NCBI GenBank assembly: GCA_903928115.1
Contig: CAIYPP010000040.1
Span: forward strand, 1 to 64,000
Source: an uncultured Planctomycetota bacterium
GTDB lineage: Bacteria > Planctomycetota > UBA1135 > GCA-002686595
Direction of reading: 5' to 3'
DNA length: 64,000 nucleotides
The first letter of the stretch is position 1. Each line of letters opens with the position of its first letter. Positions 4,832 through 35,575 of this stretch are shown piece after piece. The notes under the pieces are model-generated. The model was given only the letters and a program-made list of their open reading frames with translations, had not been told where the DNA came from and did not search any database. Position numbers and translations under genes: made by a program.

Positions 4832-4937
4832 GCCCATGGAAGGCATGGGGCGGGCACTGGGCCGAACATCCGGAACCCAAGTCGCGTCGTAGGGGTTAGG
4901 GTCTACGGTGCCCGCTCGCACTCGAGACGATTCCCCC

Positions 4938-7394
4938 ATGACGCGTACCCCCCGCCTTGCCGTGATTTTGGCCGCCCTCGGCCTCTCCCCCGCTTTCGCC
5001 CAAGAGCTCCCCCCGCTGCCGGAGAACCCGCAGCGCGCGTGGACCTTCGAGGAAGCCAACGGCCTCGCAGCCGAGCCGAGCTGGCTCTCGCTCGCCTATG
5101 CCGAGTTCGACACGCGACGGGGCACGCCGGAGCTGCCGCGCGATCTCTCGCTCGAAACGAACGCGGACGCGGGGTACTTCCTCGCCCAGTTCTCGGGGCC
5201 GATCACCGAGGAGCTGCGTGCGGAGCTCGCCGCGCTCGGTGCGGAGCTGCTCGACTACGTCCCCAACTACGCATTCCTCGTGCGCGGCGACGCCAAGGTG
5301 CGCGCGGCCGTTGGCGCTGTGGCGGCCCATGCGTGGACCGGCGACTTCCATCCCGCCTATCGACTGGAGCCGCGGCTGCGGCTCGCGGCGGATCTGGAGC
5401 CGCTCGCCTCACTCGCGCGTCCGCTGCTCGTCAGCGGCTTCCGAGGGGTGGACATTTCCGTGCTGCGGGAGCAGTTGGCCTCCGCGGGTGTCGACGTCGA
5501 ACAGGCTTGGGAGGAATACGGTCGTTGGTACGTGCAGGTGAGCGCGAGTCCGCTGGTCGCGCGTGCCATCGCGCGTGCGCGCGACGTGCAGTGGGTCGAG
5601 CCCGCCCCGGAGATCACGCTGCGCAACGACTCGATCGCGTGGGTCGTACAGACCAACGTGTCGGGCAACACGCGCATCTGGAGCCAAGGCTTGAACGGTC
5701 AGGGGCAGGTCATCGGCCACGTCGACGGCTTGCTCTCGACCACCTCGTGCTACTTCTCCGATCCCAGTGGCGCGGCGGTGGGGCCGACGCACCGCAAGAT
5801 CGTCTATCGCAACGGCAGCGGCAGTTCCGACAGCCACGGCACGCATACCGCGGGCACCGCGGCGGGAGATGCTCAGCCCGTCAATGGCTCGACCGCGACT
5901 CGCGGTCTCGCCTACCTTGCAAAGCTCGCGCACACCGAGCTTCCGATCACCGGCTTCAACACGACGGGAGTCGCGCACGCGAACGTCGGCGCGCGCGTGC
6001 ACACCAACTCGTGGGGCAACGACGCGACCACGACGTATGACTCGCTGTGCAATTCGATCGACACGTTCCAGTGGAACAACGAGGACAACCTCGTGCTCTT
6101 CTCGACGACGAACACGTCGACGCTGAAGAACCCTGAGAACGCGAAGAACCTCCTCGCGGTCGGCGCGACGCAGGACACGCCGAGCGTGAACTCGTTCTGC
6201 TCGGGCGGAACGGGCCCGACAGCGGATGGTCGGCGCAAGCCCGAGGTCATGACGCCGGGCTGTGGCACGGTCTCGGCGAGCACGGGTGCGTGCGGTACGA
6301 CCTCGTTCACAGGAACGAGCATGGCGTGCCCGTCGGCGACGGCGGCCGCGGCGCTCGTCCGCGAGTATTTCATGGACGGCTTCTACCCGACCGGTGCCGC
6401 CGTCCCCGCCAACGCGTTCACGCCGACCGGCGCGTTGATCAAGGCCGTGCTCGTGAACACGGCGCAGGACATGACCGGGATCACGGGCTACCCCAGCAAC
6501 CAAGAAGGCTGGGGACGACTCAACCTCGATGAGTCGCTGTCGTTCACGGGCGATGCTGCGAAGATGATCGCGGTCGATGTGCGCAAGGCGCAGGGATTGA
6601 CCACCGGCGGGACCTACGTGCGCCAGTTCCAAGTGAACGCGAGCACGACTCCGCTGGAGATCACGCTCGCGTGGCATGACGCGCCGGGCTCGACGAACGC
6701 CACGAATCCGGTCGTCAACAACCTCGATCTCACCGTGACGAGCCCCACGAGCGTCGTGTATCGCGGCAACGTCTTCACGGGCGGCTGGTCCGCAACGGGG
6801 GGCACCGCCGATCTGAAGAACAACGTCGAGCGTGTGGCGATTCAAGCGCCGACGGCGGGCACGTGGAGCTTGACGATCACGGCGACGAACGTGCCGACCC
6901 CGAATCAAGGTTTCGGGCTGTGTGTGACGGGCAACGTCACCGACGGCGGCGGCTCGAACCCCACGAGCTACTGCACAGCGGGGCTCACCTCGAGCTTCTG
7001 CATCCCGGACCTCACGGCGTCGGGCATCGCTAGCGCGACGGCCAGCTCGGGTTTCCTGCTGACGGCCCTGCAGGTCGAAGGCAACCGCCAAGGGCTCATC
7101 TTCTACGGGATCACGGGGCGGCACGCTGCGCTGTGGGCACCCGGAAGCGGCAGCTTCCTGTGCGTGAAGGCACCGGTGCAGCGCACGACAGCGCTCAACA
7201 CCGGCGGCGCGAATGACACGTGCCAAGGCACACTCTCGATCGACTGGAACGCGTATCGGTTCTCGCGTCCGAGCGCGCTCGGCAACCCGTTCACCTCGGG
7301 CCAGCTCGTGCAGGCGCAGGCGTGGTTCCGTGATCCGGCGGCGCCCGGCACCACGAACCTCTCCGACGGACTCGAGTTCACCGTGAGACCCTGA
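4938..7394 (+). CDS. secreted S8 (subtilisin-like) serine peptidase, copy 2
   Basis: A tandem duplicate of the preceding gene with the same architecture: signal peptide (MTRTPRLAVILAALG, probable cleavage after AFAQ), propeptide-like region, S8 domain, jelly-roll domain and the shared C-terminal domain from about SYCTAGLTSSF. I start at the ATG at 4938; the frame is open back to a GTG at 4908. Counted from 4908, the catalytic residues are Asp273 (GHVDGL), His310 (SHGTHTAG) and Ser471 (TGTSMAC); an Asn follows in LFSTTNTS where the oxyanion Asn is expected. Both copies have a similar GGTCTAC(A/G)GTG segment upstream (2313 and 4900), suggesting the promoter was duplicated as well. The gene ends at a strong bidirectional hairpin. 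Confidence 0.93.
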   Translation: MTRTPRLAVILAALGLSPAFAQELPPLPENPQRAWTFEEANGLAAEPSWLSLAYAEFDTRRGTPELPRDLSLETNADAGYFLAQFSGPITEELRAELAALGAELLDYVPNYAFLVRGDAKVRAAVGAVAAHAWTGDFHPAYRLEPRLRLAADLEPLASLARPLLVSGFRGVDISVLREQLASAGVDVEQAWEEYGRWYVQVSASPLVARAIARARDVQWVEPAPEITLRNDSIAWVVQTNVSGNTRIWSQGLNGQGQVIGHVDGLLSTTSCYFSDPSGAAVGPTHRKIVYRNGSGSSDSHGTHTAGTAAGDAQPVNGSTATRGLAYLAKLAHTELPITGFNTTGVAHANVGARVHTNSWGNDATTTYDSLCNSIDTFQWNNEDNLVLFSTTNTSTLKNPENAKNLLAVGATQDTPSVNSFCSGGTGPTADGRRKPEVMTPGCGTVSASTGACGTTSFTGTSMACPSATAAAALVREYFMDGFYPTGAAVPANAFTPTGALIKAVLVNTAQDMTGITGYPSNQEGWGRLNLDESLSFTGDAAKMIAVDVRKAQGLTTGGTYVRQFQVNASTTPLEITLAWHDAPGSTNATNPVVNNLDLTVTSPTSVVYRGNVFTGGWSATGGTADLKNNVERVAIQAPTAGTWSLTITATNVPTPNQGFGLCVTGNVTDGGGSNPTSYCTAGLTSSFCIPDLTASGIASATASSGFLLTALQVEGNRQGLIFYGITGRHAALWAPGSGSFLCVKAPVQRTTALNTGGANDTCQGTLSIDWNAYRFSRPSALGNPFTSGQLVQAQAWFRDPAAPGTTNLSDGLEFTVRP

Positions 7395-7471: not shown

Positions 7472-8959
7472 TCAGCGCGAGTTCGCGACGCGCTCGACCT
7501 GCTCCATGTACTCTTGGATGTTCTCGCGCGGCTTGATCGTCTGCGCACGGCGCAGGAGCGGCAGAGCCTCGCTGTAGCGACCGAGGCCGACGAGCAGCTG
7601 GGCATGACGCACCTTGGCGTCCGCTTCGTAGGCCTCGATCGCGGCAGCTCGCTCGAAGAGGAAGATGGCGCGGTCCGGGTCGCTCGAGCGCTGGGCGTGC
7701 TGGCCGAGGAGGATCAGCGCCTCGCCGTCGAGCGGATCGAGAGCCACGATCTCTTCGAGGATGCGCACCTCGTCGCCGCTCGCGCCTTCGGCGACCGCGA
7801 GGCGCGCGCGCAGCTTGAGCAAGTCCTTGCGCTCCGACTCCGAGAGACGCTCGGCGCGGAGACGCTGCACGTCTTCGACGAGTCGGCGCGCGTCGGCGGT
7901 GGCGCCGCGGGCCATCAGCACGCGGGCTGCGCGCACGGCTCGATCGCTCGACTGGGCCGGATTGCGCTCGAGCGCGCGCGTGTACGCAGCCACGGCGAGC
8001 TCGAACAGCTCTTCGTTGACGTAGATGTCGCCGAGCATGTTCTGACTGTCGGCCGTGCCAGCGCCCATGCGCTCGACGATCTCGTAGTTCTCCGCCGCGC
8101 GCATGCGCTGGCCGAGCCCAATGTAGGCGTTCGCCTGCAGGAGCCAGAGGTCCGCGCGATCGGGCTGATCGGCGAGCATGGTGCCGCACAGCGCTGCAGC
8201 GTCATCGAAACGGCGCTGCTTGAAGAAGCAGCGGGCGAGCCCCATCTTCCAGTCCTGCGTCGCGGGGTCGAGCAGGTTGGCCATGCGGTAGGCCGACTCA
8301 GCGGCGAGGTGGTTCTCGAGGTTCGAGTTCGCGAACCCGAGCAGACCGTAGGTGAGCGCATCGCCGCCACCGAGCTCGATCACTCGCGTGAGCGCCGTCG
8401 AGGCGCGACGGTGATCGCTCTGGCGAACATGAATCAACGCAAGGTTGCGCCACGCACGACGGAAGCGCGGAAACTTCTCCACGGCGGCGTCGTAGACCGG
8501 AATCGCCTTGTCGAGCTCTTCGCGCTGGAAGTAGATGTTCGCGAGCGTGAAGTCGATCACCGCACTCGCACCAGCGCCGCGCAGCTTCTCGATCTCGACG
8601 ATCGCGAGGTCGAGCTTCTCGGTCGAGATCAGCTCCAGCACCTTCTGCATCGACTCGCGCTCGAGCTGCGTGACCTTCGGCTCGATGTCCGTCTCGGACG
8701 CATAGCTCTCGATCAGGCGGCGACGGAACGTGGCGTCGCTCCAGAGCTCGTCCCCGGGCTTGCGCGCACTGCGCTCTTGCACGACCGGCTCGAAGACCGG
8801 CTCGCTCGCCACTGGACCGGACTCCGCGATCGGAGCCGAAGCCTCGACGAGCGCAAGCTCGAGAACGGGAGTCGACGGCGCGGGCGCAACCGCGGCGGTC
8901 GACGCGCATGACGCGGCCAGCAGGAGGATCGGGGCGCTGAGGGAGATCTTCATCGGCAT
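7472..8959 (-). CDS. TPR-repeat lipoprotein of the TonB system
   Basis: Last gene of the TonB operon. The start at 8959 (MPMKISLS...) overlaps the tonB stop as TGATG, implying translational coupling; an ATG two codons on (8953) is equally possible. The N-terminus MKISLSAPILLLAASC has a lipobox with lipidated Cys, so it is probably membrane-anchored. The body of about 450 residues consists of TPR-type helical repeats (for example an ALTYGLLGFANSNLENHLAA segment and a GEALILLGQHAQRSSDPDRA segment). In Vibrio-type TonB2 clusters a TPR protein occupies the same position after tonB2. Its role is unproven; a scaffold or energy-coupling accessory is plausible. Confidence 0.85.
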   Translation of the reverse strand: MPMKISLSAPILLLAASCASTAAVAPAPSTPVLELALVEASAPIAESGPVASEPVFEPVVQERSARKPGDELWSDATFRRRLIESYASETDIEPKVTQLERESMQKVLELISTEKLDLAIVEIEKLRGAGASAVIDFTLANIYFQREELDKAIPVYDAAVEKFPRFRRAWRNLALIHVRQSDHRRASTALTRVIELGGGDALTYGLLGFANSNLENHLAAESAYRMANLLDPATQDWKMGLARCFFKQRRFDDAAALCGTMLADQPDRADLWLLQANAYIGLGQRMRAAENYEIVERMGAGTADSQNMLGDIYVNEELFELAVAAYTRALERNPAQSSDRAVRAARVLMARGATADARRLVEDVQRLRAERLSESERKDLLKLRARLAVAEGASGDEVRILEEIVALDPLDGEALILLGQHAQRSSDPDRAIFLFERAAAIEAYEADAKVRHAQLLVGLGRYSEALPLLRRAQTIKPRENIQEYMEQVERVANSR

Positions 8960-9645
8960 CACTTCTCCGGGAAGGTGATCGGCACGCGCATGCGGAAGCG
9001 GACGGGCTGTCCCTTGCGCTTGCCGGGCTCGAACTTCCACTGCTTGACGGCGTTGAGCGCCGCCTTCTCGAACACGGGGTCGGTGGACTTCTGAACGATG
9101 GGATTTTCGACGCGCCCCTGCTGGTCGACGACGAACAGCACCGAGACGCTGCCGGGCAGCTTCTTGCGCATGTCCGCAGTCACGGTGGGGCCGGGTTGGT
9201 AGACGATGCGCGGCTGCTGATCGAGGTCCGCGAGCGAGAAAAGCGAGTCGACTTCCTCACCGCCACCGGAGCTGCCCGTCGCAGCGGCCACGTTGAGCTT
9301 GACCACGAAGTCGCCGCCGAGGCCGTCGCCTCCCATGCCAGGATTGAGCGCCAGCTCGAGCTGCGAAAGGTCGAGCGGCGGCGCCTCCTCGGTGAGCTCC
9401 GGCGGCTTCGGTTCTTCCTGTTGTTCCTCCTCCTGCTCGGGCTCTTGCTCGGGCGGAGGAGGAGGCGGCGGCACGTCCGCGGTCGCCACGGTGCGCAGCG
9501 TGGTGTCCTCGGGCGTCGTCGCGCTGATAGCTTGCAAGAACGGCAGCAGCAGGAACAACACGAGCGCAAACGCGAGCCCCACCAGCAGCACGAGGATGCC
9601 GTGGACGAGCTTGCCGAGCAGGGTCGAGGCGCGAGTGCGGCGCAC
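8959..9645 (-). CDS. tonB: energy transducer TonB
   Basis: TonB carries proton-motive energy from ExbB/ExbD to outer-membrane receptors. The 228-residue protein has one N-terminal membrane anchor (about 13-40), a Pro/Glu-rich periplasmic spacer (PPPPPPPEQEPEQEEEQQEE, about 58-90), a Gly-rich linker and a C-terminal TonB domain (from about 150: VSVLFVVDQQGRVENP, KAALNAVKQWKFEPGKRKG). It lies 10 bp after exbD and overlaps the next gene. The acidic spacer, rather than a Lys-Pro repeat, is slightly unusual. Confidence 0.93.
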   Translation of the reverse strand: MRRTRASTLLGKLVHGILVLLVGLAFALVLFLLLPFLQAISATTPEDTTLRTVATADVPPPPPPPEQEPEQEEEQQEEPKPPELTEEAPPLDLSQLELALNPGMGGDGLGGDFVVKLNVAAATGSSGGGEEVDSLFSLADLDQQPRIVYQPGPTVTADMRKKLPGSVSVLFVVDQQGRVENPIVQKSTDPVFEKAALNAVKQWKFEPGKRKGQPVRFRMRVPITFPEK

Positions 9646-9655
9646 GGTCGTGGTC

Positions 9656-10069
9656 TCAGCTCTTCGCGCGGCTCGTCGCCACGCTCACCTTCTCGGCGCC
9701 ACCGAGCTTGCACTCATCGATCACGCGCACGAGCAGGCCCGATTGCGCGTTGGTGTCGGCCTGCACGATCACAGGCACCTTTTCCTTTTGGAGCATGCGG
9801 CGCACCAGGGGCTGAACACCTGCGACGCCGATCTGACGACCGCCGTACACGATGTCACCCTTGTCGGTGATCGCGATCAGGATGCTGGTCTTCTCGAGGC
9901 GCGCGGCACTGGCAGCCTGCGGCTTGTCGACCTCGATGCCGGTCTCCTCGACGAACGTCGTGGTGACGATGAAGAAGATCAGCAGGATGAAGACGCAGTC
10001 GATCATCGGCGACATGTCGATGCCGCCTTCGCTGCCGGAGTCGTCGGAAGAGTTCTTGAAGCGTCCCAT
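9656..10069 (-). CDS. exbD: ExbD/TolR-family biopolymer transport protein
   Basis: 137 residues, the usual ExbD length. A short cytoplasmic N-terminus leads into a single membrane helix (CVFILLIFFIVTTTF) preceded by the conserved proton-path Asp at position 24 (SPMIDCVF). The periplasmic domain includes KVPVIVQADTNAQ. It pairs with the ExbB encoded 17 bp upstream to form the inner-membrane motor that drives TonB. Confidence 0.94.
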   Translation of the reverse strand: MGRFKNSSDDSGSEGGIDMSPMIDCVFILLIFFIVTTTFVEETGIEVDKPQAASAARLEKTSILIAITDKGDIVYGGRQIGVAGVQPLVRRMLQKEKVPVIVQADTNAQSGLLVRVIDECKLGGAEKVSVATSRAKS

Positions 10070-10086
10070 GGCTTGGTTTCTCGCGT

Positions 10087-10749
10087 TCAGGCCGCAGCGC
10101 CACGCTGGCGCAGCTCACGGTAGAGCGTCTGGGTGCAGATGGTCTCGAGATGCGAGACGAAGGTGCGGTAGAGGTCGTGCTGGCGCGCGAGCATCCACTG
10201 GAAGAACAGGCCCGGAAGCGCGACGACGAGACCCGCTTCGGTCGTGATGAGCGCCTCGGAAATGCCCTTGGCGATCTGCGCCATCGTTTGGTCACCGCCG
10301 GAGCCAGAAGCGAGCGCGCCGAACGTAGCGAGCATGCCCGTGACCGTTCCGAACAGGCCAAACAGCGGCGCCGTGCCGACGCAGATCTTCATCACGCGAA
10401 GATCGCGCTCGAACGGCGCAACTTCCGTGGCGTTGATGCCGCCGAACGCCGCAGCCATGTCGTCGAGCTTGCGCTCCCCGGTCACGAAGTCGAGTAGCTC
10501 GCCAATCGCACCCTTGCGCTGTGCGGGTTCGGCGACCCAAGCGCGGATCTGCTGGTCCTTCATGAACATCGCGCGCAGCAGGCCCTTCTCGAGGAGCCGC
10601 AGCTGGATGTGCATGCCGAGCCCGAAGAGCACGAGCGCATTGATGGCGATTGCGGCCATGCCCCAGCCCCCCGCGATCCAGATCGCGTAGGCTTGGTCCC
10701 AGATCGCCTGGAGGCTGCCGAGCGCCTCGATTCCGCCGATGTGCTGCAT
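10087..10749 (-). CDS. exbB: MotA/TolQ/ExbB-family proton channel protein
   Basis: 220 residues with three expected membrane segments: an N-terminal one around GGWGMAAIAINALVLFGLG, then two around GTAPLFGLFGTVTGMLATF and TTEAGLVVALPGLFFQWML. The GLFGTVTGM signature is typical of the family. It is encoded 11 bp after a larger ExbB-like protein and just before exbD. Its short form matches ExbB2 of TonB2 systems. Motor subunit for TonB energisation. Confidence 0.92.
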   Translation of the reverse strand: MQHIGGIEALGSLQAIWDQAYAIWIAGGWGMAAIAINALVLFGLGMHIQLRLLEKGLLRAMFMKDQQIRAWVAEPAQRKGAIGELLDFVTGERKLDDMAAAFGGINATEVAPFERDLRVMKICVGTAPLFGLFGTVTGMLATFGALASGSGGDQTMAQIAKGISEALITTEAGLVVALPGLFFQWMLARQHDLYRTFVSHLETICTQTLYRELRQRGAAA

Positions 10750-10761
10750 GTCGAGCTCGGC

Positions 10762-12180
10762 TCAGGCGGCCTCGGCGAGCGGGGTCTTCGCGACTTGGTT
10801 CATCATCGCGATCGCGGCCTTCTCCATCTCGTCTTGCACGCCGCGCGCCTTGCGGGCGAGGAATGCGTGCAGGAGCAGCGACGGGATCGCGACGATGAGA
10901 CCGTATTCGGTTGTGATGAGCGCTTCGGAGATGCCGCTCGAGAGCGTCTTCACATCGCCGGTGCCGAACACCGTCATCAACGAGAAGGTGTTCATGATGC
11001 CCGTCACGGTGCCGAGCAGCCCGAGGAGCGGAGCCGCCGACGCGCTGATTGCCACGAACGGCAGCAGGCTGTTCAGCTTGAGCTTCGTCGCGAGCATCTT
11101 CTCGTACATCACCTCTTCGACGAGCTCCTTCGGCTCGCGCAGATGGGCGACGCCGACGGCGAGCATCTCGCCGATCGGACCGCGGATCGCTCCGACGCGC
11201 TCCTTCGCGAGCTTCTCGTCGCGCGCGGCGAGCGCCTCGACGAGGCCGTCGACTTGCTTGCGCGAAGGCATGCGCAGCACCGTCATCGAGCCCCACTTGT
11301 AGAGCGCGACGAGGAAGGCCGCGACGGCCAGAACGAGGATCGGCCACATGATCGGACCGCCCGCGAGGAAGTGCTCGACCACGGTCTCTTCGATGGCCTC
11401 GACCTTGAGCGCGTTGCCTTGGCTGGCGTCGAACGGGAGCTTGCCCGCGCCCATGGTCACGAGATCGGCAGCCGCCGCCGCATCTTCGGGCTTGCCGAAG
11501 GGGAGCACCGCGGGCTCGAGCGAGCCGAGGCGCTGTTCTGCCACGCCGACAGCGAGCCCGTCCGCCGAACGGAAGAGCGCGACCGGTCCCGCCATCACGA
11601 ACGTGCCGGGCTTCACCGTGCCGTTCGAGTCGACCGCGGCGCCTTCGAAGCGCGAGCCACCGAGTGCGTCTTCCAGACGACCGATCGAAGTCTCGAGCAG
11701 CGCCACCTGCGTCAGGGAGATCTGCTGCTCGGTGAGCGTCGTGTTCTCCGGCGCGAGTTTCGCGGCTTCGAGTTCCTTGGCGTAGCGATCGAGCTCGGCG
11801 ATATGCAGGCGCGAGTCGAAGTTGCGCGTGTACTCGCCCATCAGGGTCGAGAGGTAGGCGGCCTCGTCGTTGCGCGACTTGATCTCGTTGCGCAGGTTCG
11901 AGAGGTCGAGGGTGCGGCTGTCGAGCAGGCGGCTGGTGGTCTGGAACTCCTGTCGCACCTTGACGAGCTCGGCTTCGAGCTCGCGCAGCTGGCGGCTCAA
12001 CGGCAGCTTCTCCGCGGCCATCTGCTCGCGCAGTGCGCCGAGCTCGGCCACGCTCTCCTGCAGCTGACGCTGCACCGATTGCGCGGCGGTTTCGAACTGG
12101 GCCTGCGGCTTCGCCGCGCCATCCTGCGCGAGAGCGGGTGCGGCGACGAAGGCGAGGAGGATCGTCGTGAAGATCTTCAT
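10762..12180 (-). CDS. TtpC-like ExbB-family protein with long periplasmic N-terminus
   Basis: The ATG at 12180 begins a signal peptide (MKIFTTILLAFVAAPALAQ); the frame is open further upstream but that part overlaps the previous gene. About 472 residues: a coiled-coil periplasmic region (roughly 30-150), a beta-rich stretch, then a C-terminal MotA/TolQ/ExbB module with membrane helices (PILVLAVAAFLVALYKWG; SAAPLLGLLGTVTGIMNTF; TTEYGLIVAIPSLLLHAFL). Two ExbB-like proteins in a row, the first with a large N-terminal extension, is the hallmark of the TtpC protein of Vibrio TonB2 systems. Assignment is by architecture and order. Confidence 0.88.
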   Translation of the reverse strand: MKIFTTILLAFVAAPALAQDGAAKPQAQFETAAQSVQRQLQESVAELGALREQMAAEKLPLSRQLRELEAELVKVRQEFQTTSRLLDSRTLDLSNLRNEIKSRNDEAAYLSTLMGEYTRNFDSRLHIAELDRYAKELEAAKLAPENTTLTEQQISLTQVALLETSIGRLEDALGGSRFEGAAVDSNGTVKPGTFVMAGPVALFRSADGLAVGVAEQRLGSLEPAVLPFGKPEDAAAAADLVTMGAGKLPFDASQGNALKVEAIEETVVEHFLAGGPIMWPILVLAVAAFLVALYKWGSMTVLRMPSRKQVDGLVEALAARDEKLAKERVGAIRGPIGEMLAVGVAHLREPKELVEEVMYEKMLATKLKLNSLLPFVAISASAAPLLGLLGTVTGIMNTFSLMTVFGTGDVKTLSSGISEALITTEYGLIVAIPSLLLHAFLARKARGVQDEMEKAAIAMMNQVAKTPLAEAA

Positions 12181-12191
12181 GGTTGCTCCGC

Positions 12192-12980
12192 TCACTGCAC
12201 GCGCAGCGGAAGCTGCACGAACTCGGCCACGGTCTCGTTCTTCAGGATCGCGATCGCCTTGTTGACGTCGCCCGCGAGCGCATCCGCGCTCGTCCAGCCC
12301 CAACCGTCGGCCGTCGAGGTTCCGATACCCGCCGCCATACCATCGGCGCTGGCGTAGAACGCGCAGCTCATTCCGACGTACAGCACGGTCACTTCCGCAC
12401 TGCGACCATCGCCCAGCGTGCGCACTTCACTCGTCACCGTGATCTCGCGGTGGAACTTGTTGAGCTCGTTCAGGATGCCCACCACGTTCTGGAAGCGCGC
12501 GGAGAGCGACTCCTTGGACGCCTCACCGGCCTTCGGAAGACGCTGGCTCAGCGGCTTGACGCGCTCGCGGATCGGCTCCGGCGCACGGGCGAGAAGTGCG
12601 AGCGTGCGCTGCTCGAGCTTCGACGCGGTCTCGACGAGGGCCGACGACGAATTCTTGAGGCGCTCGTTCTCTTGCACGAGCTCGTCGCGCTTGCGATCGG
12701 CCTCGGCGATGCTGCCTTCGGCCTCCTTGATCTTGCCGCGCAGGCTCTCGATCTCACGCTGTACGAGCGCGATGCGGTCCTGCAGGAGCTCCTTGCCGAG
12801 CTGCCAGTCGCGCCGCTCTTGCGTGATCACCTTGCGGGTCTCGACCCAGCGCTCGAGCGCTCCGCGCGCGTCGTCGAGTCCATCCGGACCCTGCGCGCCG
12901 ATGGCCACACCCGCGCCGAGGGCCGCCAGCGCGGCGCCCGCGAGCGCAATCCGAGTCTTGCTTGCCAAAAGTTCCTTCAT
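12192..12980 (-). CDS. DUF3450-family periplasmic coiled-coil protein
   Basis: 262 residues. An N-terminal hydrophobic segment (RIALAGAALAALGAGVAIG) is followed by a long coiled coil (about 55-125, rich in E/R/K/L, including LQDRIALVQREIESLRGKIK) and a C-terminal domain with EVTVLYVGMSCAFYASADG. This resembles DUF3450, found next to ExbB/TtpC genes in TonB2-type clusters. It sits 11 bp upstream of the TtpC-like gene and 13 bp after the receptor gene. Biochemical role unknown; a periplasmic adaptor of the TonB complex is the likely job. Confidence 0.82.
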   Translation of the reverse strand: MKELLASKTRIALAGAALAALGAGVAIGAQGPDGLDDARGALERWVETRKVITQERRDWQLGKELLQDRIALVQREIESLRGKIKEAEGSIAEADRKRDELVQENERLKNSSSALVETASKLEQRTLALLARAPEPIRERVKPLSQRLPKAGEASKESLSARFQNVVGILNELNKFHREITVTSEVRTLGDGRSAEVTVLYVGMSCAFYASADGMAAGIGTSTADGWGWTSADALAGDVNKAIAILKNETVAEFVQLPLRVQ

Positions 12981-12993
12981 CTGCCGTCTCTTC

Positions 12994-15993
12994 TCAGAAG
13001 CTGTAGGAGAGGTTGAGGGTGAGCGTGACGTCGATGCCGCGCGTGAACGAAGTGCGCCGCACGTCGTCGCCGATGTACTTGGAGCGGTAGACCGTCTCGA
13101 TCGTCGGATCGGTCAGGTTCTTGGCCTGCAGCTGCAGGCGCATGTACTCGCCGATGCGCTGGAACACGCTCAGGTTCAGCGTGTCGTACTGCACGGCGTA
13201 CACGTTGGGGATGTAGTTTCCGTTGGACTCGCCCGCGCCCGCGATCAGCGTGTCACCTTGGATGGTGTAGAAGAGTCCCACCTGCGTCCCGCTCTCTTCG
13301 TTGTCCCACGTGAGGAACAGATTGAAGAGTTGCTCGGGAGCGTTGGTCATGTCGCGCGTCGACATCGGCGCCGCGATGTTGGGCTGGTTGAACTGGTCGA
13401 TCTCGGCCTGCGTCAACGAGACCTGCGAGTCGATGAAGGTGGCGTTCGCTCCGAGCGAGAAGCCCGTCAGCGCGTCGTTCCACTTCGACAGATCTTGGCG
13501 TAGCTCAATCTCCGCGCCCCCCAGTCGACCTTCGGGATAGTTGACCGCGGTCGTGTAGTTGAAACCCGCGATGCGCTGGACGTACTCGATCGGATCGGTC
13601 AGGTCTTTGTGGAACCCCGAGACGGAGACGAGACCGCCGTCGTAGGGCGTGTAGTCGACTCGCAGGTCGTAGTTCTGCAGCTCGCTCATCTGCAAGTCCG
13701 GGTTGCCGATGAAGATCGGACCACCGAGGAACTCGGACTGGATGATCGGCGTGAGCTCCTTGAACGTCTGACGCGCAAGCGTCTGGCTCCAAGCCGCGCG
13801 CAGCGTCCACTTGTCCGCCGGCTTGTATTCGAGCCCGAGCGACGGGAGCACGTTCGTCTGCGAGAAGTCGACGTCGGCGTCACCGGGATTGAGCTGCGTG
13901 GGCGCAGCCGCGCCCGGCGGATACCACAGCGCGAGCGCGTCGGGATCGTTGACGATCCCTATCTCCGTGCTTTCGACACGCGCGCCGCCGACGGCCTTGA
14001 ATACTGGCGAAAACGGCAGATCGACCATGCCGTACCAAGCCTGAATGTTCTGCTCGCCGTCATAGTCGACGTCTTCGAGCGACTCGAACATCGGGTGGTT
14101 CTCGTCCGGGAACTGCGCGCTCCACGGATCGTCGAAGTCGCCCTGATACGTCGAGAAATCGCCGCTGTTCGTGTAGGTGTCCTGCGTGAACTTGCGGTCG
14201 ACGCTGTCACTGAAGACGCCGAGCTTCGCGTAGCCTTCCTGACCGGACCACTGCTCGAAGGGCAGCTTCATGTTGAGCGCCAGCTGCGAGTTCTCCTCCT
14301 CGATCGTCTTCCAGATGCGCTGGACGTTGCCGAGGTTGAAGTTGGCGGCCGGCTTGTAGGGCAGCCAAGTCGCCGGCGTGGTGAAGGGCGGGATGAACGG
14401 CGGGAAGCCAGGGTTGAACGACGAAGGCTGCCAGAGCGCGCCAAACTGGCGCTTGTCCGGCTGGTCCATGGATGCGGAGCTTGCGGAGAGCGTCCAATCG
14501 AGCTTGGGCTCCTTGAAGAAGCCCGCTGCGTCGCCGGGTGCGGGCAGTTCGTGCTCGCCGCGCAGCTGCAGCGTGCTCGTCGTGCGCTCGGTGTACTCGA
14601 GCGTCTCCGTGCGCAAGTACGGCGCTGCGTTCAGGCTCGCGGCATCCGTGCCCGGGCTCGACGTGTCGTTCGGATCATGGCCGGGGAAGAAGTACTCCTT
14701 GCCTCGCGTATCGATCGCGAGCGTCGCGGTGTCCTCGGCGGCGTGCGTGTAGAGGTACGTGAGGCTGAGCTTGTTCTTCTCGTTCTCGACGCCGAAGACT
14801 CCGAGCGCGCCCCAGCGCACGTTGAGCGAGCTCTGGTCGATGTCGAACAAGCCCGTCTTGAAGTCGCCGTCCGTCGGCGTGCCCTGATAGGTCTGCGGCG
14901 TCATCCCCGTGCCGGGAGTGGTCACCCACCACGAGTCGTCGGTCCCATCGTCGATGTACTGGCTGTCGCGCTCGTAGAAGAAGCTGCCGAAGCTGCCCAT
15001 GCGCCATCCGTTGGCGAGCTCGCGCATGCCGCCGCCGGAGATCGACCACTTCGAGTCGATGGGAGCATCTTCCTCGCGCACGCCGACCGCGCCCTTCCAG
15101 CTCTGCCCAAGCAAGCTGTCTTGCGGGTCTCGGCCGCCGTCGTCGAAGCCGAAGAACTCGATTCCGCCGCCGTCGTAGGACAGGAAGTCACCGCGGCCGG
15201 TGACGTTCGAGTTGTAGCCGAGCTGACCGCTGATGTTCAGCGTCGTCTCTTCGGGAATACCGCGCAGGCGCACATCGACCGCACCACCGGAGGCGTCACC
15301 CTGCTGGTCGGGCGTAAAGGTCTTGCTGACCTGAATGCTCTCGATGACCGACGTGGGGAACTGATCGAGCTCGACCGCGCGCTTGTCCTCGTCCGCGGAC
15401 GGCAGGCGCACGCCGTTCATCTGCGAGCTGACGTAGCGATCGGGCAGGCCGCGAATGACCGCGAACTTGCCGTCTTGCACGGTCGCGCCCGAGACGAGGC
15501 GCAGCGCACTCGCCGCATCACTCGCACCAGCGCGGCTCATCAGGCCCGCGCTGATCGAGTCCATCAGAGCCGGCGTCTCGAAGCGCAGCTCGAGCAGACC
15601 GGCCTCCGTGCCGGTATCCATCTCGAGCACGTCCTCGACGACGAACTCCTCCATCTCGGTGAACTCGCCCGAGAGGTAGGCGTCGACGTCGGCGAGCTGA
15701 CCCGGAAGGACGAGCACGTCGGCCTTCACTTGCCTCACGTAACCGTCCTTCGAGAAGACCAGCGTGTACTTGCCGGGCGCGACCTCGGGGAACACGTAGT
15801 TGCCCTGCTCGGACGCCACGAGCTTCTGGCCTGTCTCGACGATCAGGACCTGCGCTCCGCCGAGCGGCGCGTCGAAGTCCTTGTCGAACACCACCCCGCG
15901 CACGGAGCCCGCACGGTCTTGCGCATACGCCGCGCTGGCCGCGATCACGACCGCCGCGGCGGTGCACAGGAGCTGGGGGGAGAGGTTCTTCAC
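12994..15993 (-). CDS. TonB-dependent outer-membrane receptor
   Basis: First gene of the TonB operon; GTG start at 15993. Signal peptide (about 1-24, ending AAYAQ), a carboxypeptidase-regulatory-like beta-sandwich (about 28-110: VRGVVFDKDFDAPLGG), a plug domain (about 140-245: FAVIRGLPDRYVSSQMNGV, IQVSKTFTPDQQGDASGG), then a 22-strand-type barrel to residue 999, ending LNLSYSF with the C-terminal Phe typical of outer-membrane barrels. The ligand cannot be read from sequence. It is co-transcribed with its own TonB motor. A four-unit 11-bp direct repeat lies just upstream (16020-16063), so phosphate-starvation or other OmpR-family control is inferred. Confidence 0.93.
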   Translation of the reverse strand: MKNLSPQLLCTAAAVVIAASAAYAQDRAGSVRGVVFDKDFDAPLGGAQVLIVETGQKLVASEQGNYVFPEVAPGKYTLVFSKDGYVRQVKADVLVLPGQLADVDAYLSGEFTEMEEFVVEDVLEMDTGTEAGLLELRFETPALMDSISAGLMSRAGASDAASALRLVSGATVQDGKFAVIRGLPDRYVSSQMNGVRLPSADEDKRAVELDQFPTSVIESIQVSKTFTPDQQGDASGGAVDVRLRGIPEETTLNISGQLGYNSNVTGRGDFLSYDGGGIEFFGFDDGGRDPQDSLLGQSWKGAVGVREEDAPIDSKWSISGGGMRELANGWRMGSFGSFFYERDSQYIDDGTDDSWWVTTPGTGMTPQTYQGTPTDGDFKTGLFDIDQSSLNVRWGALGVFGVENEKNKLSLTYLYTHAAEDTATLAIDTRGKEYFFPGHDPNDTSSPGTDAASLNAAPYLRTETLEYTERTTSTLQLRGEHELPAPGDAAGFFKEPKLDWTLSASSASMDQPDKRQFGALWQPSSFNPGFPPFIPPFTTPATWLPYKPAANFNLGNVQRIWKTIEEENSQLALNMKLPFEQWSGQEGYAKLGVFSDSVDRKFTQDTYTNSGDFSTYQGDFDDPWSAQFPDENHPMFESLEDVDYDGEQNIQAWYGMVDLPFSPVFKAVGGARVESTEIGIVNDPDALALWYPPGAAAPTQLNPGDADVDFSQTNVLPSLGLEYKPADKWTLRAAWSQTLARQTFKELTPIIQSEFLGGPIFIGNPDLQMSELQNYDLRVDYTPYDGGLVSVSGFHKDLTDPIEYVQRIAGFNYTTAVNYPEGRLGGAEIELRQDLSKWNDALTGFSLGANATFIDSQVSLTQAEIDQFNQPNIAAPMSTRDMTNAPEQLFNLFLTWDNEESGTQVGLFYTIQGDTLIAGAGESNGNYIPNVYAVQYDTLNLSVFQRIGEYMRLQLQAKNLTDPTIETVYRSKYIGDDVRRTSFTRGIDVTLTLNLSYSF

Positions 15994-16019: not shown

Positions 16020-16063
16020 ATGAAGCCCCGGTGAACGCTTCGTGGCCTCTATGTGAAGCAAGC
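16020..16063 (-). promoter_or_regulatory. four-unit 11-bp direct repeat (PHO-box-like) before the receptor gene
   Basis: On the plus strand, units begin at exactly 11-bp steps: ATGAAG (16020), GTGAAC (16031), GTGGCC (16042, degenerate), GTGAAG (16053). On the gene strand these read CTTCAC/GTTCACC. Seven-base repeats at 11-bp spacing are how PhoB/PhoP-type regulators bind, and GTTCACC is the Streptomyces PHO unit. The array ends 26 bp before the receptor start codon. Identity of the regulator is inference. Confidence 0.55.
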
Positions 16064-16202: not shown

Positions 16203-17402
16203 CTACCAAGGTTCGCCGAGCGAGGCGCGAGCAAGCTGCATGCGCTGGAACAGGGCCGCGTCAGGCCGTGCGCCACAGCGAGCCATGGCGCAGGCCGTTG
16301 CGGCGAGATCATCGGCGCGGGGCCGTGAGTTCGGGTTTACGAGTCCTTCATCGAGTGCGCGACCGAAGGTGGCGAGGGCCGCGGAGCTCTCACCCATCGA
16401 CTGCTGCGCCTCGGCCACGGCACGCAGCGCGCCGGCGCGGTAGATGTCGACGATGCGCTCGCGCTCGCGCTCGAAGAGGCCGAGCACGCCCGCGATGTCG
16501 CGCTGAGCGCGATCCGACTGACCCGCGGCATGGCGCAGGCGCGCGATCGCGGCGATCTGCACGATGTGGTCCTCCGCGACCCAGTGATTGTTGTCGACGA
16601 GTGCCTGCGCTTCGTCGAGCTGACGCTCCGCACCGGAGCGGTCGTCGATCGCGATCAGGTTCTCGGCAAGTCGCCGCAGGAGCCCGGTGCGGACGTCGAG
16701 GGGTAGCTTCTCCCAGCTCGACTTCACCAAGAACTCGATCTTCTCGCGGCGCTCCGAGTCCGCACCGGCGACGCGGTGCAGCTCGACCGCGGTCTCGAGC
16801 GAGCACTTGAGCGCATCGAAGCCGCCGTTTTTCGCCGTTGCGCGCAGGAGCTCGAGCCGCCCATCGAACTGCTCGATCGAAGACTGCGAGGCGACCACCA
16901 CCTGCACGGCGCCGATCTCGGCTTCGCCAACGCCCTGCGTGAGACGCGCCACTGCGTCGGCATTGCCGAGCCAGTGGTGAGCAGCCGCGAGGTGCGCGCG
17001 CACGCGCTCGTCGTGCCATTCCTGAGTGCCCGGAACGAGCGACGCTTCAGCGAGCGCGAGCACACGGCGCGCATCGTCCGTCCGCGCCAGACGAGCTTGA
17101 TGCAAGGCGACATCAGCGAGCGCCTGCGCTCGTCTCCAATCGGTGATCGCAAGCGCCATGCGCTCCGCTTGGCTCGGCAGATCGAGCTCCAAGGCGGCCT
17201 GCACCACCGACTCCTGTGCGCGACAGCGATTGCGCGCGTGCGGAACGTCCGGCATCGCGCTGACGGCCGCGAACCCTAGCTCGACGAGAGCCTCGCGTGT
17301 CGGAGCCGTTGCGACCTGCGCTGAGGACTGCGAAGGAATCGGTGTCGACGCGGACGGGGCGTCGTGGGTGAAAAGAACGAGCGTCAGGCAGGCGAGGTGC
17401 AT
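16203..17402 (-). CDS. secreted helical-repeat protein of unknown function
   Basis: Starting at the ATG at 17402 gives 399 residues with a short signal-like N-terminus (MHLACLTLVLFTHDAPSAS); an upstream in-frame start exists at 17465. The rest is almost all alpha-helical, Ala/Arg/Glu-rich, with TPR-like 30-40-residue periodicity (for example LADVALHQARLARTDDARRV and RLRHAAGQSDRAQRDIAGVL). No catalytic motif recognised. It lies between the receptor operon and the beta-helix gene on the same strand, with a hairpin on each side, so it is probably transcribed on its own. A function in the neighbouring uptake system is only suggested by position. Confidence 0.65.
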   Translation of the reverse strand: MHLACLTLVLFTHDAPSASTPIPSQSSAQVATAPTREALVELGFAAVSAMPDVPHARNRCRAQESVVQAALELDLPSQAERMALAITDWRRAQALADVALHQARLARTDDARRVLALAEASLVPGTQEWHDERVRAHLAAAHHWLGNADAVARLTQGVGEAEIGAVQVVVASQSSIEQFDGRLELLRATAKNGGFDALKCSLETAVELHRVAGADSERREKIEFLVKSSWEKLPLDVRTGLLRRLAENLIAIDDRSGAERQLDEAQALVDNNHWVAEDHIVQIAAIARLRHAAGQSDRAQRDIAGVLGLFERERERIVDIYRAGALRAVAEAQQSMGESSAALATFGRALDEGLVNPNSRPRADDLAATACAMARCGARPDAALFQRMQLARASLGEPW

Positions 17403-17422
17403 GGGTGTCGGCTCAAGGAAGC

Positions 17423-17458
17423 GCGCTCCGCACCCGCCGTAAGGCAGGTGCGGAGCGC
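17423..17458 (-). terminator. hairpin after the beta-helix gene
   Basis: Perfect 12-bp inverted repeat GCGCTCCGCACC / GGTGCGGAGCGC with a 12-base loop, 28 bp beyond the stop at 17487 and just upstream of the helical-repeat gene. Only a short T-rich tail (TTCCTT) on the minus strand. Confidence 0.65.
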
Positions 17459-17486
17459 TCGTCACATCAGCTCAGGAGTCTCTCGA

Positions 17487-19436
17487 TCACGGCAGGAGCG
17501 TGAACTCGAGCGCGTTGGAGAGGTGCGTCGTCTTCGGCGCCGGCGGGTCGCGGAACCAGCCCTGGGCCTGGTAGACCTGACCCGCGACGCGCGGGTTACC
17601 GACGGCCGTCGGAGCAGCAGTCGCCATGTAGGCGTTCCAATCGACCGAGAGCTCGCCGTTGCAGGAACCAGCGGCGCCGCCGGTGTTCTGGGCCGGGATG
17701 CGCTGGGTCGGAGCCTTGACGCACAGGAAGCTCGAGCCCGTGCCCCAAGCGGCGGCCGAACGACCGCTGATGCTGTAGAAGAGCAGACCCTGCTTCTGAC
17801 CTTCGACGTTGCTGACGAGCAGCGTGTAGCCCGAGGTCGCCGAGGCGCTCGGCGTGCCGATCGCGGTCATCGTCGCGTTGCAGCCGTTGCTCGTCGTGCC
17901 CGCGGTGCAGTAGGCGACGGTGCTCGTGACCGGCGTCAGACCGAAGGCCGAGGTGGCGGTCCAGCCGTCGAGCCAGTTCTCGCCGGGCGCGAACGCGCCG
18001 CGGTAGCTGGCCGAGGTGAAGAAGCCGTCGTTGGGGGCGGAGGCGACGCTCGCGAGGGCATCGGCCGCCGGACGAGGATCGAGGCTCAGGACGGGGAGCA
18101 TCGTCTTGCCGCCCTTGACCACCGGGCTACCGCGCGTGATCGACACGATCGGCTGCACGGTCGCCGTGACATTGTTGTTGCTCGCGCCGAAGACGCCGCG
18201 CGCGGTCGCCTCGGTGTACGCACTCGCGAACAAGTTGCGGAAGAACACGCTGTCCTTGAGCTCGCACAGGTTGCCCGAGGTCTGGACCGTGTAGAACGCG
18301 GCCGGGTTCGCCGGAGCGTTGACCGTCGACGTCGTGGTGTACGCCGTCGTCCAGAGGTTGGCCCACGTGGTCGTGCCATTGAAGCCGTAGCCGCTGCCGC
18401 CGTCCCCGTCGATGTTGTCGTTCTGGACGAGGCGCTCGCCGAGGTCCATGAACACGCTGTTGCGGATCTGGACGCGGGCACCGTCGCGCCACGCCGTGCC
18501 GTGGTCGCCGTCGATCGGCTGGCCGATCACGGTCATGTTGTAGAGGGTCGAGGTCGTGACCGGCTGCCAGTCCGAGTTCTCGGCGCCGTCCATCTCGATG
18601 GCGTTGTCGCCGACGCCCGAGCCCTGCGCCGCGTTGGCGCTGTGGCCCTGAACGATCAGGCCGAACTGGGCCTTGCCGCGCCAGCCCTGGTCGATGTCGA
18701 GGCTGTCGTCACCGACGTTCCAGATCGAGAAGTGCTTGAGGTTGACCGTGCCGCCCCAGATCTCGATGCCGTCGTCGACGTTGTTGAGGATCTCGACGTG
18801 GTGGATTTCCGTGTTGCGACCGATGCCGCCGAGCGAGAGGCCGTTGAGCTCGTTGTTGAGGCCGACCACCTTGCCCGCGTAGCGGATCGAGACGTAGCTG
18901 ATCGAGCCCGAGTCGTCGTCGTCGTTGCCGCCGCCGTAGAGCACCTTGGTGTCACCGGGGAACTGGGCGACGAGACCTTCCATCGGCGCGAAGTTCGCGG
19001 CGTTCGGCGTCGCGGTGTTCGGCGTCGTCGTGCCGTTGACGTTCTCCGAGATGTAGCCCGCGCCCATGATCGTGAGGTTGCCCCACTCGTTGGCGCCTTC
19101 GCGGTACGTGCCGGTGTGCGGGTTGCCGGCGACCCACGTGGCGGTGTCAGCCTTCGAGGTCATGATGACCGGGTTCGCGGCGGTGCCGTTGACGAAGATC
19201 TGGGCGCCCTTGCAGACGGCGAGGCTGCCGCCAAGGTTCGTGGTGCTCGCGATGACCGTGCCCGCTTCGATCGTCAGCGTGGCGCCGGGGAGCACGTAGA
19301 TCTGCTGCTGGAGGTTGTAGACGTTGTTGGCGGTCCACGTCGTGGAGGTGGAGATGTTGCTGGTGACCAGCACTTCGCCGGCCTGCGCGGTGGCTGCCAA
19401 CGCGAACGAGGCGAGGAGGATGGATGCGTTTCTCAT
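17487..19436 (-). CDS. secreted right-handed beta-helix protein with shared C-terminal domain
   Basis: The ATG at 19436 opens a signal peptide (MRNASILLASFALAATAQAG); the longer open frame upstream is not coding. The 649-residue protein begins with a beta-helix entry segment (IYVLPGATLTIEAGTVIAST), then parallel-beta-helix repeats containing N/D-rich turns (YGGGNDDDDSGSISYVSIRY, VEILNNVDDGIEIWGG). The C-terminal domain (about 508-649, from AYCTAGTTSNGC, ending WFRDPPAP...LEFTLLP) is shared with the two peptidases and, more distantly, the two delta-60 proteins. Related beta-helix proteins are common beside TonB-dependent receptors in other bacteria. A surface ligand-capturing partner of the receptor is inferred from that and from the matching upstream repeats. 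Confidence 0.85.
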   Translation of the reverse strand: MRNASILLASFALAATAQAGEVLVTSNISTSTTWTANNVYNLQQQIYVLPGATLTIEAGTVIASTTNLGGSLAVCKGAQIFVNGTAANPVIMTSKADTATWVAGNPHTGTYREGANEWGNLTIMGAGYISENVNGTTTPNTATPNAANFAPMEGLVAQFPGDTKVLYGGGNDDDDSGSISYVSIRYAGKVVGLNNELNGLSLGGIGRNTEIHHVEILNNVDDGIEIWGGTVNLKHFSIWNVGDDSLDIDQGWRGKAQFGLIVQGHSANAAQGSGVGDNAIEMDGAENSDWQPVTTSTLYNMTVIGQPIDGDHGTAWRDGARVQIRNSVFMDLGERLVQNDNIDGDGGSGYGFNGTTTWANLWTTAYTTTSTVNAPANPAAFYTVQTSGNLCELKDSVFFRNLFASAYTEATARGVFGASNNNVTATVQPIVSITRGSPVVKGGKTMLPVLSLDPRPAADALASVASAPNDGFFTSASYRGAFAPGENWLDGWTATSAFGLTPVTSTVAYCTAGTTSNGCNATMTAIGTPSASATSGYTLLVSNVEGQKQGLLFYSISGRSAAAWGTGSSFLCVKAPTQRIPAQNTGGAAGSCNGELSVDWNAYMATAAPTAVGNPRVAGQVYQAQGWFRDPPAPKTTHLSNALEFTLLP

Positions 19437-19540: not shown

Positions 19541-19573
19541 GTGAAGACCCTGTGAAGCCTTGTCGAAGCTTCG
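19541..19573 (-). promoter_or_regulatory. three-unit 11-bp direct repeat (PHO-box-like) before the beta-helix gene
   Basis: Plus-strand units GTGAAG at 19541 and 19552 and the weaker TCGAAG at 19563, exactly 11 bp apart; on the gene strand CTTCAC is repeated. The array lies 104 bp upstream of the start codon, with a possible -10 (TACCTT) about 20 bp downstream of it. Same motif and orientation as the repeat before the receptor gene. Confidence 0.5.
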
Positions 19574-33793: not shown

Positions 33794-35392
33794 ATGACGA
33801 AGTTCTCCCTCGCACTCGGCGCATTCGCGTTCTGCGCTGCGCCTGCGCTCGCACAGAACGAGCAACTGCACTTCCTCTCGCGCTACACCACGGGCCTCGG
33901 CACCGCGAACGCCGAGATCGCCGCGTTCGATGCCTCGAGCAACCGCATGTTCTGCGTGAACGGCGGCAATTCCTCCGTCGACATCGTCGACCTCTCCAAC
34001 GCCGCGAGCCCAGCACTGGTCACGCGCCTCAGCATCGCCCAGCTCTTCGGCGATGCCGAAGCCTCTGCTGCTCCCAATAGCGTCGCCGCATCCAACGGCC
34101 TCATCGCCGTCGCGATCGAGCGCAAGGAGCCCTCTGGCCGCCACAAGCCCGGCCGCATCGCCTTCTTCAACCCGGCGGGCGCGCTGATCGACGTCGCCAC
34201 CACGGGCTACCTCCCCGATATGGTCACGTTCTCGCCGGATGGGCGCTTTGCGCTGACGGCAAACGAGGGCGAGCCGACCGGCGACTACAGCTTCGACGCC
34301 GAAGGCTCGGTCTCGATCGTCGATTGCACGAAGGTTCGGCTTGCGCTGGCGAATCCGTCTCAGGCCGCGTCCTACGCGCTGACCGCCGCGGACGTGAAGC
34401 TCGCCACCTTCGGCCGCTTCAACTCGATGGTGACGAGCCTGCGGGCCGCTGGAGTCCGCATCTATGGACCCAACGCCACCGTCGCTCAGGACTTGGAGCC
34501 CGAGTACATCACGGTCCCGCAGGGTTCCATCTACGCCTACGTGACGCTGCAAGAGAACAACGCCGTCGCGATGGTGAACATGCTCACCGGCGTCGTCGCG
34601 CGCATCATGCCGCTCGGCTACAAGGACTGGTCGCTGTCCGCGTTCGACGCAAGCGATCGCGACTTCGCGATCAAGATCCAATCGTGGCCGGTGTACGGCA
34701 TGTACCAGCCCGATGCGATCGTCTCGTTCCGCATCGGCACGAGCACGTACTTCCTCACCGCCAATGAAGGCGATGCGCGCGACTACAGCGCCTTCAAGGA
34801 GGAGAAGCGCGTCAAGGACCTCACCCTCGACCCGACGGCGTTCCCCAATGCTGCCACGCTGCGCCTCGACCAGAACCTCGGCCGTCTGACGGTGACCGAC
34901 AAGCTGGGCAACCCCGACAACGACGGCGACTTCGACCAGCTCTATACGCTCGGCGGGCGATCCTTCACGATCTACCGTGCGGGCAACTCGGGCACGCTGA
35001 CGCGCATCTACGACAGCGGTGACCAGCTCGAGCAGATCACCGCGCAGCTCGTGCCGAGCCGCTTCAATGGCGATCCCGTGTTCGATACGCGCAGCGACAA
35101 CAAGGGCCCCGAGCCCGAGGGTGCTGCGGTCGGCGTCGTGAACGGTCGCACCTACGCCTTCGTGTGTCTCGAGCGCACGAACGGCGTGATGATGTTCGAC
35201 GTCAGCAACCCGAACACGCCTGTGTTCCGCAGCTACCTCAACACGAGCACCGTTTCGGGATCGTCACAGAGCGGTGACGTCTCGCCCGAAGGCCTCGTGT
35301 TCGTTCCGGCGGCGCAAAGCCCGAGCGGCAACGCGCTCGTCCTGAGCTCGAACGAGCTCAGCGGCACGGTTGCGATCTACGAAGTGCGCTGA
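33794..35392 (+). CDS. secreted choice-of-anchor I family beta-propeller protein
   Basis: 532 residues; signal peptide MTKFSLALGAFAFCAAPALAQ. The rest follows the choice-of-anchor I pattern: repeated beta-propeller blades (NGGNSSVDIVDLSNAASPAL; LPDMVTFSPDGRFALTANEG; YFLTANEGDARDY; FVCLERTNGVMMFDVSNPN), ending in a short strand (LSGTVAIYEVR) without the C-terminal domain of the other secreted proteins here. In some bacteria this family is fused to or located near phosphatases; here it stands alone. Function not known. Confidence 0.88.
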   Translation: MTKFSLALGAFAFCAAPALAQNEQLHFLSRYTTGLGTANAEIAAFDASSNRMFCVNGGNSSVDIVDLSNAASPALVTRLSIAQLFGDAEASAAPNSVAASNGLIAVAIERKEPSGRHKPGRIAFFNPAGALIDVATTGYLPDMVTFSPDGRFALTANEGEPTGDYSFDAEGSVSIVDCTKVRLALANPSQAASYALTAADVKLATFGRFNSMVTSLRAAGVRIYGPNATVAQDLEPEYITVPQGSIYAYVTLQENNAVAMVNMLTGVVARIMPLGYKDWSLSAFDASDRDFAIKIQSWPVYGMYQPDAIVSFRIGTSTYFLTANEGDARDYSAFKEEKRVKDLTLDPTAFPNAATLRLDQNLGRLTVTDKLGNPDNDGDFDQLYTLGGRSFTIYRAGNSGTLTRIYDSGDQLEQITAQLVPSRFNGDPVFDTRSDNKGPEPEGAAVGVVNGRTYAFVCLERTNGVMMFDVSNPNTPVFRSYLNTSTVSGSSQSGDVSPEGLVFVPAAQSPSGNALVLSSNELSGTVAIYEVR

Positions 35393-35415
35393 ACGCAAAG
35401 GCGGAACTTCTTTCC

Positions 35416-35449
35416 AGCGGGCGTCGGTGCCACAGCACCGGCGCCCGCT
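35416..35449 (+). terminator. hairpin after the beta-propeller gene
   Basis: Inverted repeat AGCGGGCG-T-CGGTGC / GCACCG-G-CGCCCGCT around a CACA loop, 24 bp after the stop, followed by GTTCTTC. Confidence 0.75.
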
Positions 35450-35452
35450 GTT

Positions 35453-35474
35453 CTTCACGATCGCTTCACGATCG
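35453..35474 (+). promoter_or_regulatory. two perfect 11-bp direct repeats (PHO-box-like) before the Sel1 gene
   Basis: The unit CTTCACGATCG occurs twice back to back at 35453 and 35464. It has the same CTTCAC core, 11-bp spacing and orientation relative to the downstream gene as the repeats before the receptor and beta-helix genes, and ends 101 bp before the ATG at 35576. It directly follows a terminator hairpin, so a chance duplication is the alternative. Confidence 0.5.
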
Positions 35475-35575
35475 CACGCGGCAGCGCGCGAGGCGAATCA
35501 AGGCGCAGCTAGCTCGCTCCCGATGTACGCAACGAGGGGCTCAGGTGAGCGCGCGCGGCCTCCGATAGCGGGGAC

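Follow-up and report, generated by a model that had tools for sequence, protein, structure and literature searches.

A TtpC-type Ton operon in planctomycetes, with a conserved secreted partner protein and a probable link to phosphorus acquisition

A private Ton system in a planctomycete

What would a lake planctomycete do with a complete TtpC-type Ton motor that comes with its own receptor? We examined this question in a 64,000-nucleotide stretch of DNA (the window), where a sequence-only reading had placed seven genes at 7472-15993, running from receptor through DUF3450, long ExbB, short ExbB, ExbD and TonB to a TPR lipoprotein, with tight spacing and a TGATG coupling at the end. All seven open reading frames lie on the minus strand in that order and are Pfam-assigned, and the proposed TtpC-type motor, dedicated receptor and planctomycete origin all hold. 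The gaps are 10-17 bp (13, 11, 12, 17 and 10 bp from the receptor towards the TPR gene), followed by the 1-bp TGATG overlap. In a profile search, DUF3450 scored 109.1 bits against a Pfam cut-off of 32.6. The start listed for the TPR gene, a GTG at 9040, was replaced by one at 8959, and a unit of seven genes only was rejected, as two conserved genes upstream (16203-17465 and 17487-19436, the products of which we call UP420 and BH) belong to it too. BH and UP420 are separated by 21 bp, UP420 and the receptor gene (REC) by 209 bp. The extended unit reads as follows:

7472..8959, minus strand: TPR lipoprotein in the TtpD position; its start overlaps the TonB stop (TGATG)
8959..9645, minus strand: TonB (TonB_C, Pfam)
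9656..10069, minus strand: ExbD (Pfam)
10087..10749, minus strand: short ExbB (MotA_ExbB, Pfam)
10762..12180, minus strand: long, TtpC-like ExbB; a DUF3450-shaped periplasmic domain, then an ExbB/TolQ domain
12192..12980, minus strand: DUF3450, TtpB-like (Pfam, model); a coiled coil and a small five-strand domain
12994..15993, minus strand: REC, TonB-dependent receptor (Pfam); CarboxypepD_reg, Plug and barrel
16020..16036, minus strand: Pho-box-like repeat GTTCACCGGGGCTTCAT, 26 bp ahead of the REC start
16203..17465, minus strand: UP420, TPR-like; homologue in 105 of 139 loci
17487..19436, minus strand: BH, secreted; homologue in 114 of 139 loci
19541..19557, minus strand: Pho-box-like 11-bp direct repeat CTTCACAGGGTCTTCAC, 104 bp ahead of the BH start codon

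The complete seven-gene order recurs in 76 of the 139 loci examined, which indicates that the arrangement is not due to chance; these are raw locus counts and not independent, since some genomes contribute to both L031-L062 and L123-L202. Loci without the complete order are mostly cut by contig ends or belong to a single-ExbB type described below. Of the 343 genomes that we sampled in the window's phylum, 66 contain DUF3450, which also occurs in other PVC phyla; the whole motor is present in most of the loci read. The nearest named record is the uncultured planctomycete isolate Erken-D4, whose DUF3450 is 95% identical; the metagenome record names 'Akkermansia', 'Chitinophaga', 'Singulisphaera' and 'Phycisphaera mikurensis' were not accepted as taxonomy.

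The source genome (4.3 Mb, approximately 88% complete) encodes one DUF3450, four MotA_ExbB proteins, two of them in the operon, two Plug receptors and two TonB_C proteins. REC and the operon's TonB are thus each one of two in the genome. The notion of a "specialised" uptake machine is supported. The only other TonB receptor (691 aa, contig C7) is followed at once by a TonB of its own; among the open reading frames listed nearby, ExbBD was not found.

BH is a conserved partner of the receptor

As read from the translation, BH carries a signal peptide that is not followed by a lipobox cysteine. It matches no Pfam or NCBIfam family, and sequence searches of the PDB gave nothing useful. A repeated Gly/Asp pattern, together with one weak Beta_helix match among 37 BH homologues, makes a parallel beta-helix the probable fold. 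Its C-terminal 147 aa form a lineage-specific module: a convergent subtilase next door, at 4908-7394 of the window, ends in approximately 147 aa that match it. The common module has no Pfam family and probably serves in sorting or anchoring, as a domain specific to the lineage.

Across the 64 loci with two ExbBs (62 measured), BH has a mean identity of 62.6% to the window copy and is thereby more conserved than REC (55.9%) and all motor proteins except ExbD (72.9%). BH occurs in 52 of the 343 genomes of the phylum and DUF3450 in 66, with both in 47. By raw counts that ignore kinship, DUF3450 is found in 47 of the 52 BH-bearing genomes versus 19 of the 291 others; among the 46 strong BH matches, 43 are accompanied by DUF3450. 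Where a locus shows both BH and REC (100 loci), BH immediately precedes REC in the same orientation in 77 and comes downstream of the operon in 17. Two variants were seen in single loci: L106 holds two BH units in one frame of 1066 aa, and in L145 a further BH lies downstream of the operon. For UP420 the window copy has no Pfam match, and 14 of 27 aligned homologues match TPR_12.

The pairing of BH and receptor extends to other phyla, as the two adjoin in plasmid records from Alteromonas/Pseudoalteromonas, Sphingomonas, Indioceanicola, Parabacteroides and Hymenobacter. On the Sphingomonas and Indioceanicola plasmids the order is BH, receptor (TBDT) and type II secretion (T2SS) genes; T2SS genes are present in loci L212 and L213. 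The same order, elpS (cc0170)-cc0171 (TBDT)-gsp, is published for Caulobacter and likewise for Sphingomonas alaskensis (PMC2996285). According to that report, Caulobacter produces ElpS when starved of phosphate, the protein reaches the cell surface without the T2SS, and homologues of elpS and cc0171 are widespread and co-occur; against a phosphate link, cc0171 is described as constitutive. The Caulobacter T2SS itself is placed in the PhoB regulon (PMC11208175). The window operon resembles ElpS/CC0171 in having a secreted or surface protein gene beside a TBDT gene, in a phosphate link and in the joint conservation of the two. In contrast to ElpS, the window BH is without a lipobox. The pair is accompanied by a private TtpC-type motor, and no T2SS family was named among the window genes and flanking open reading frames scanned. 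The likeness of BH to ElpS rests on synteny through alphaproteobacterial homologues, and we do not claim membership.

Evidence for a phosphate context

Several related operons adjoin phosphate genes. In Anammoxibacter OFTM214 a pstS-pstC-pstA-pstB-phoU run leads straight into BH-UP420-REC and the motor, and in Anammoxibacter OFTM134 phoU lies ahead of BH and, beyond the TPR gene, come phoB, a Porin_O_P gene and pstSCAB-phoU. At the single-ExbB locus L196, pstSCAB-phoU-phoB-phoR precede BH, in L133 and L174 phoB adjoins BH (pstB matches lie on other contigs of both genomes), and in L117 a phosphate-porin-like (Porin_O_P-like) gene adjoins the operon. The phosphate genes and the operons they adjoin share contigs. 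The PhoB and PhoR assignments are best matches below the cut-off, and translations were the basis for naming some genes in these runs. Such pho, pst or porin neighbours occur in only 6 of the 129 PVC loci searched, two of them from one genus, and many flanks are short.

Candidate Pho boxes point the same way. The repeat TTCACA-N5-TTCACA has 6 and 13 matches in the two Anammoxibacter genomes, compared with 2 and 0 for the reversed control, and 4 of the 6 and 8 of the 13 fall inside the pst/operon stretch (p 2.5e-9 and 4e-14), where repeats precede pstS, PhoX-like, GDPD and BH genes. The window holds three BTTCAYN5BTTCAY sites against 0.05 expected, and none of 100 shuffles reached three, with a pattern that was chosen after the first window box had been seen; the sites precede BH, REC and a Sel1 lipoprotein at 35576. 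Among REC upstream regions, 11 of 88 carry a repeat at the 11-bp spacing versus 0-4 at other spacings, and among BH upstream regions 8 of 66 do so versus 0-3 (81 upstreams, 66 of them non-redundant). The footprint at 16020-16036 ahead of REC is kept in the same-genus loci L031, L032 and L036, the last having four repeat units in a row.

Other counts speak against this reading. A slightly different, stricter repeat pattern gave 4 matches in the window genome versus 2 in the reversed control, and over eight pho-adjacent stretches a 12-bp spacing (14) was commoner than the 11-bp one (8). On contig C158 of the window genome, which carries phoB/R/U, the phoBRU stretch examined showed no box, and no pst genes were recognised.

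Further features accompany these genes. At 33794-36139 of the window, a choice-of-anchor I protein comes first, then a Pho-box-like repeat at 35453-35469, then the Sel1 lipoprotein. In 30 of 139 loci the operon has Sel1 proteins in its flanks, and the Anammoxibacter Pho island includes a choice-of-anchor I/phytase-like gene. A 50-kb phosphate island (L264-L265; genome G385, contig 14, 150-189 kb) contains PhoX-like, GDPD and metallophosphatase genes and repeated TTCACA boxes, and pstS adjoins the operon.

Of the limiting conditions that the sequence-only reading had named (phosphate, iron or glycan), the genomic evidence points to phosphate. Uptake of glycans or peptides, with BH as a beta-helix protein that acts on or binds glycans and a receptor that imports oligosaccharides, is very unlikely: TIGR01782-type and CarboxypepD_reg receptors often are glycan receptors and the TonB2 system of T. 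turnerae works in cellulose use, but BH has no Pfam or NCBIfam match to a glycan enzyme, and among the 25 of 110 flanking families listed (100 open reading frames) we find Sel1 (14), response regulators (4) and PhoU (2), with a 3-keto-disaccharide hydrolase in 2 of the 100.

DUF3450 resembles the periplasmic domain of TtpC

The long ExbB at 10762-12180 has its MotA_ExbB domain at the C-terminus. AF2 models of DUF3450 and of the TtpC N-terminus (mean pLDDT 88 and 84) run through the same series of a long coiled coil, a helix, five strands and a helix. Profile comparison by hhalign with gammaproteobacterial rows added gave a probability of 94% (E 9e-8, 183 columns), compared with 6% for PVC rows only; a coiled-coil bias is possible in this match, since a comparison restricted to the globular parts gave P 0.008. 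The models and the profile match suggest that DUF3450 may be a free copy of the TtpC periplasmic domain, and a 2025 paper already describes it as an appendage at the N-terminus of ExbB-like proteins (PMC12505986). A PDB fold search for DUF3450 returned no match at E<=0.001.

The long and short ExbBs of PVC bacteria both retain the counterparts of E. coli T148, E176 and T181 (one gap in 30 TtpC rows), so each of the two could conduct. The ExbD motif check missed 2 of 126. A single-sequence phmmer search with the Alteromonas TtpD protein found no match in the window, where a TPR protein occupies the TtpD position. Four loci (L120, L141, L144 and L149) have two consecutive ExbD genes per operon. 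The genome of L061 (G015, contig C128), which also has the main cluster, holds a second, divergent DUF3450-type Ton cluster, for which no BH or receptor match was found.

Probable motor exchange behind a stable BH-receptor pair

In a tree of ExbB and TtpC proteins, PVC TtpC, PVC ExbB, gammaproteobacterial TtpC and gammaproteobacterial ExbB each form one group (supports 98-100 / 97-99), in an analysis whose bootstrap had not settled and whose outgroups sit on long branches. PVC ExbB joins gammaproteobacterial ExbB at weak support (81/61), and the two TtpC groups lie side by side in an open fork. The proteins do not each have unrelated neighbours: the pairs of the window with L032 and of L110 with L113 recur in both parts of the tree, so that TtpC and ExbB have nearest neighbours in common. 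A possible old transfer between phyla had been suggested from the gene order. The separate groups, together with a DUF3450 identity of 13-17% between PVC and gammaproteobacterial proteins, rule out a recent gammaproteobacterial transfer; a very old one is possible.

A second type of motor, with one long ExbB and no short one, was found in 14, 13 and 1 complete loci of the 139. BH and the receptor are unchanged in kind in these operons (L044, L050, L053, L058, L122, L178, L185, L190 and others), and the long ExbBs form one group (96/91). Identity to the window copies is 60.5% for BH and 55.1% for the receptor (13 measured), about as in the two-ExbB loci, whereas between two-ExbB and single-ExbB loci it falls from 57% to 35% for TtpC and from 73% to 29% for ExbD. 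The motor type changes at least ten times on the BH tree, with six changes forced by starred branches (by SH-aLRT only), and eight times on the receptor tree, with five to six forced. Rows sharing >80% of 6-mers with an earlier row were left out of these trees and of the profile comparison, BH matches below 300 bits out of the tree and box tests, and matches covering <60% of the query were left out. Repeated motor exchange behind a stable BH-receptor pair would be the simplest account of these gene comparisons, the alternative being transfer of BH and receptor.

The motor comparisons also bear on the direction of transport. A TonB-driven export or surface display of BH by the receptor and its private motor would fit a pair that stays constant and travels together over phyla while motors are swapped at least six times between a two-ExbB and a single-long-ExbB form. 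ElpS reaches the Caulobacter surface without the T2SS (PMC2996285), and the TBDT Oar is reported to be required for PopC secretion in Myxococcus, a precedent. However, deletion of cc0171 did not suppress ElpS production (PMC2996285), and the partnership is equally expected of a pair that delivers a ligand. We consider export unlikely.

Relation to other Ton systems

The operon had been matched gene for gene to the Vibrio TonB2 cluster. The match stands for the motor, as the six motor genes (TtpB, TtpC, ExbB, ExbD, TonB, TtpD) have the same order in Vibrio vulnificus TonB2 and TonB3, with DUF3450 as TtpB; TonB3 is the closer layout, since it too is led by an outer-membrane receptor gene. Compared by published layout, the window operon differs from both in the BH and TPR genes upstream and in its phosphate context. 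It is deeply diverged from gammaproteobacterial TtpC-type systems, and the PVC ExbBs keep E176, which is missing in 17 of 18 gammaproteobacterial copies examined. TtpB and TtpD are reported to be essential in V. vulnificus TonB2 (PMC6957404).

A BH homologue, a homologous receptor and the six motor genes also occur together on Alteromonas macleodii pBGP9 (NZ_OX359244) and in Pseudoalteromonas chromid clusters; in each of the 13 Alteromonadales records that gave a TtpC match, the top receptor match is no more than 10 kb away from it. In these clusters UP420 was not found, the receptor is upstream (Alteromonas) or downstream (Pseudoalteromonas), and the literature searched reports no function for them. 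In the V. parahaemolyticus peuA-TonB2 operon a receptor likewise comes with a TtpC-type TonB2 system. It is co-transcribed with TonB2, serves iron/enterobactin uptake under Fur and is confined to the V. harveyi group, and the accessible text mentions no BH (PMC4141801).

Iron or siderophore uptake, as by Vibrio TonB2 with a dedicated receptor, is a rival reading: the motor genes match TonB2/TonB3, TonB2 serves iron, and peuA-TonB2 is a receptor-led iron operon. Against it stand the pst/pho neighbours and Pho-box-like repeats, the pairing with BH, which points to ElpS/CC0171, and the closer TonB3, which does not appear to be iron-regulated (PMC6957404). The best NCBIfam match of REC is TIGR01782, below its cut-off, siderophore models match weakly, and a PDB sequence search with REC gave no match. 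An iron function is therefore improbable.

A model for phosphorus acquisition

Gene content, conservation, co-occurrence, partner pairing, the DUF3450/TtpC shape match, the Pho-box-like repeats and the pst/pho neighbourhood are the direct observations on which our model builds. We propose that the unit, with BH, its partner receptor and a private motor, is probably a phosphorus-acquisition system under Pho control. Phosphate starvation would induce it. BH would be exported, act with the receptor either extracellularly or at the cell surface, and bind or process a phosphorus-containing compound that the receptor would import. TtpC, ExbB and ExbD would turn the ion gradient into TonB movement that opens the receptor, and in the periplasm DUF3450 and the TPR lipoprotein would probably bridge TonB or hold it steady.

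The motor and the pairing of BH with this type of receptor are each already known, and their combination is new; in the open-licence literature we found no paper that joins a TtpC-type motor with the pair or reports the operon from PVC bacteria. The result suggests a testable role for a highly conserved secreted family that has no name yet, and for its receptor, and it ties a TtpC-type motor to phosphorus, not iron. It also offers a natural experiment on ExbB, since in one lineage the same receptor is served by a motor that lacks the short ExbB.
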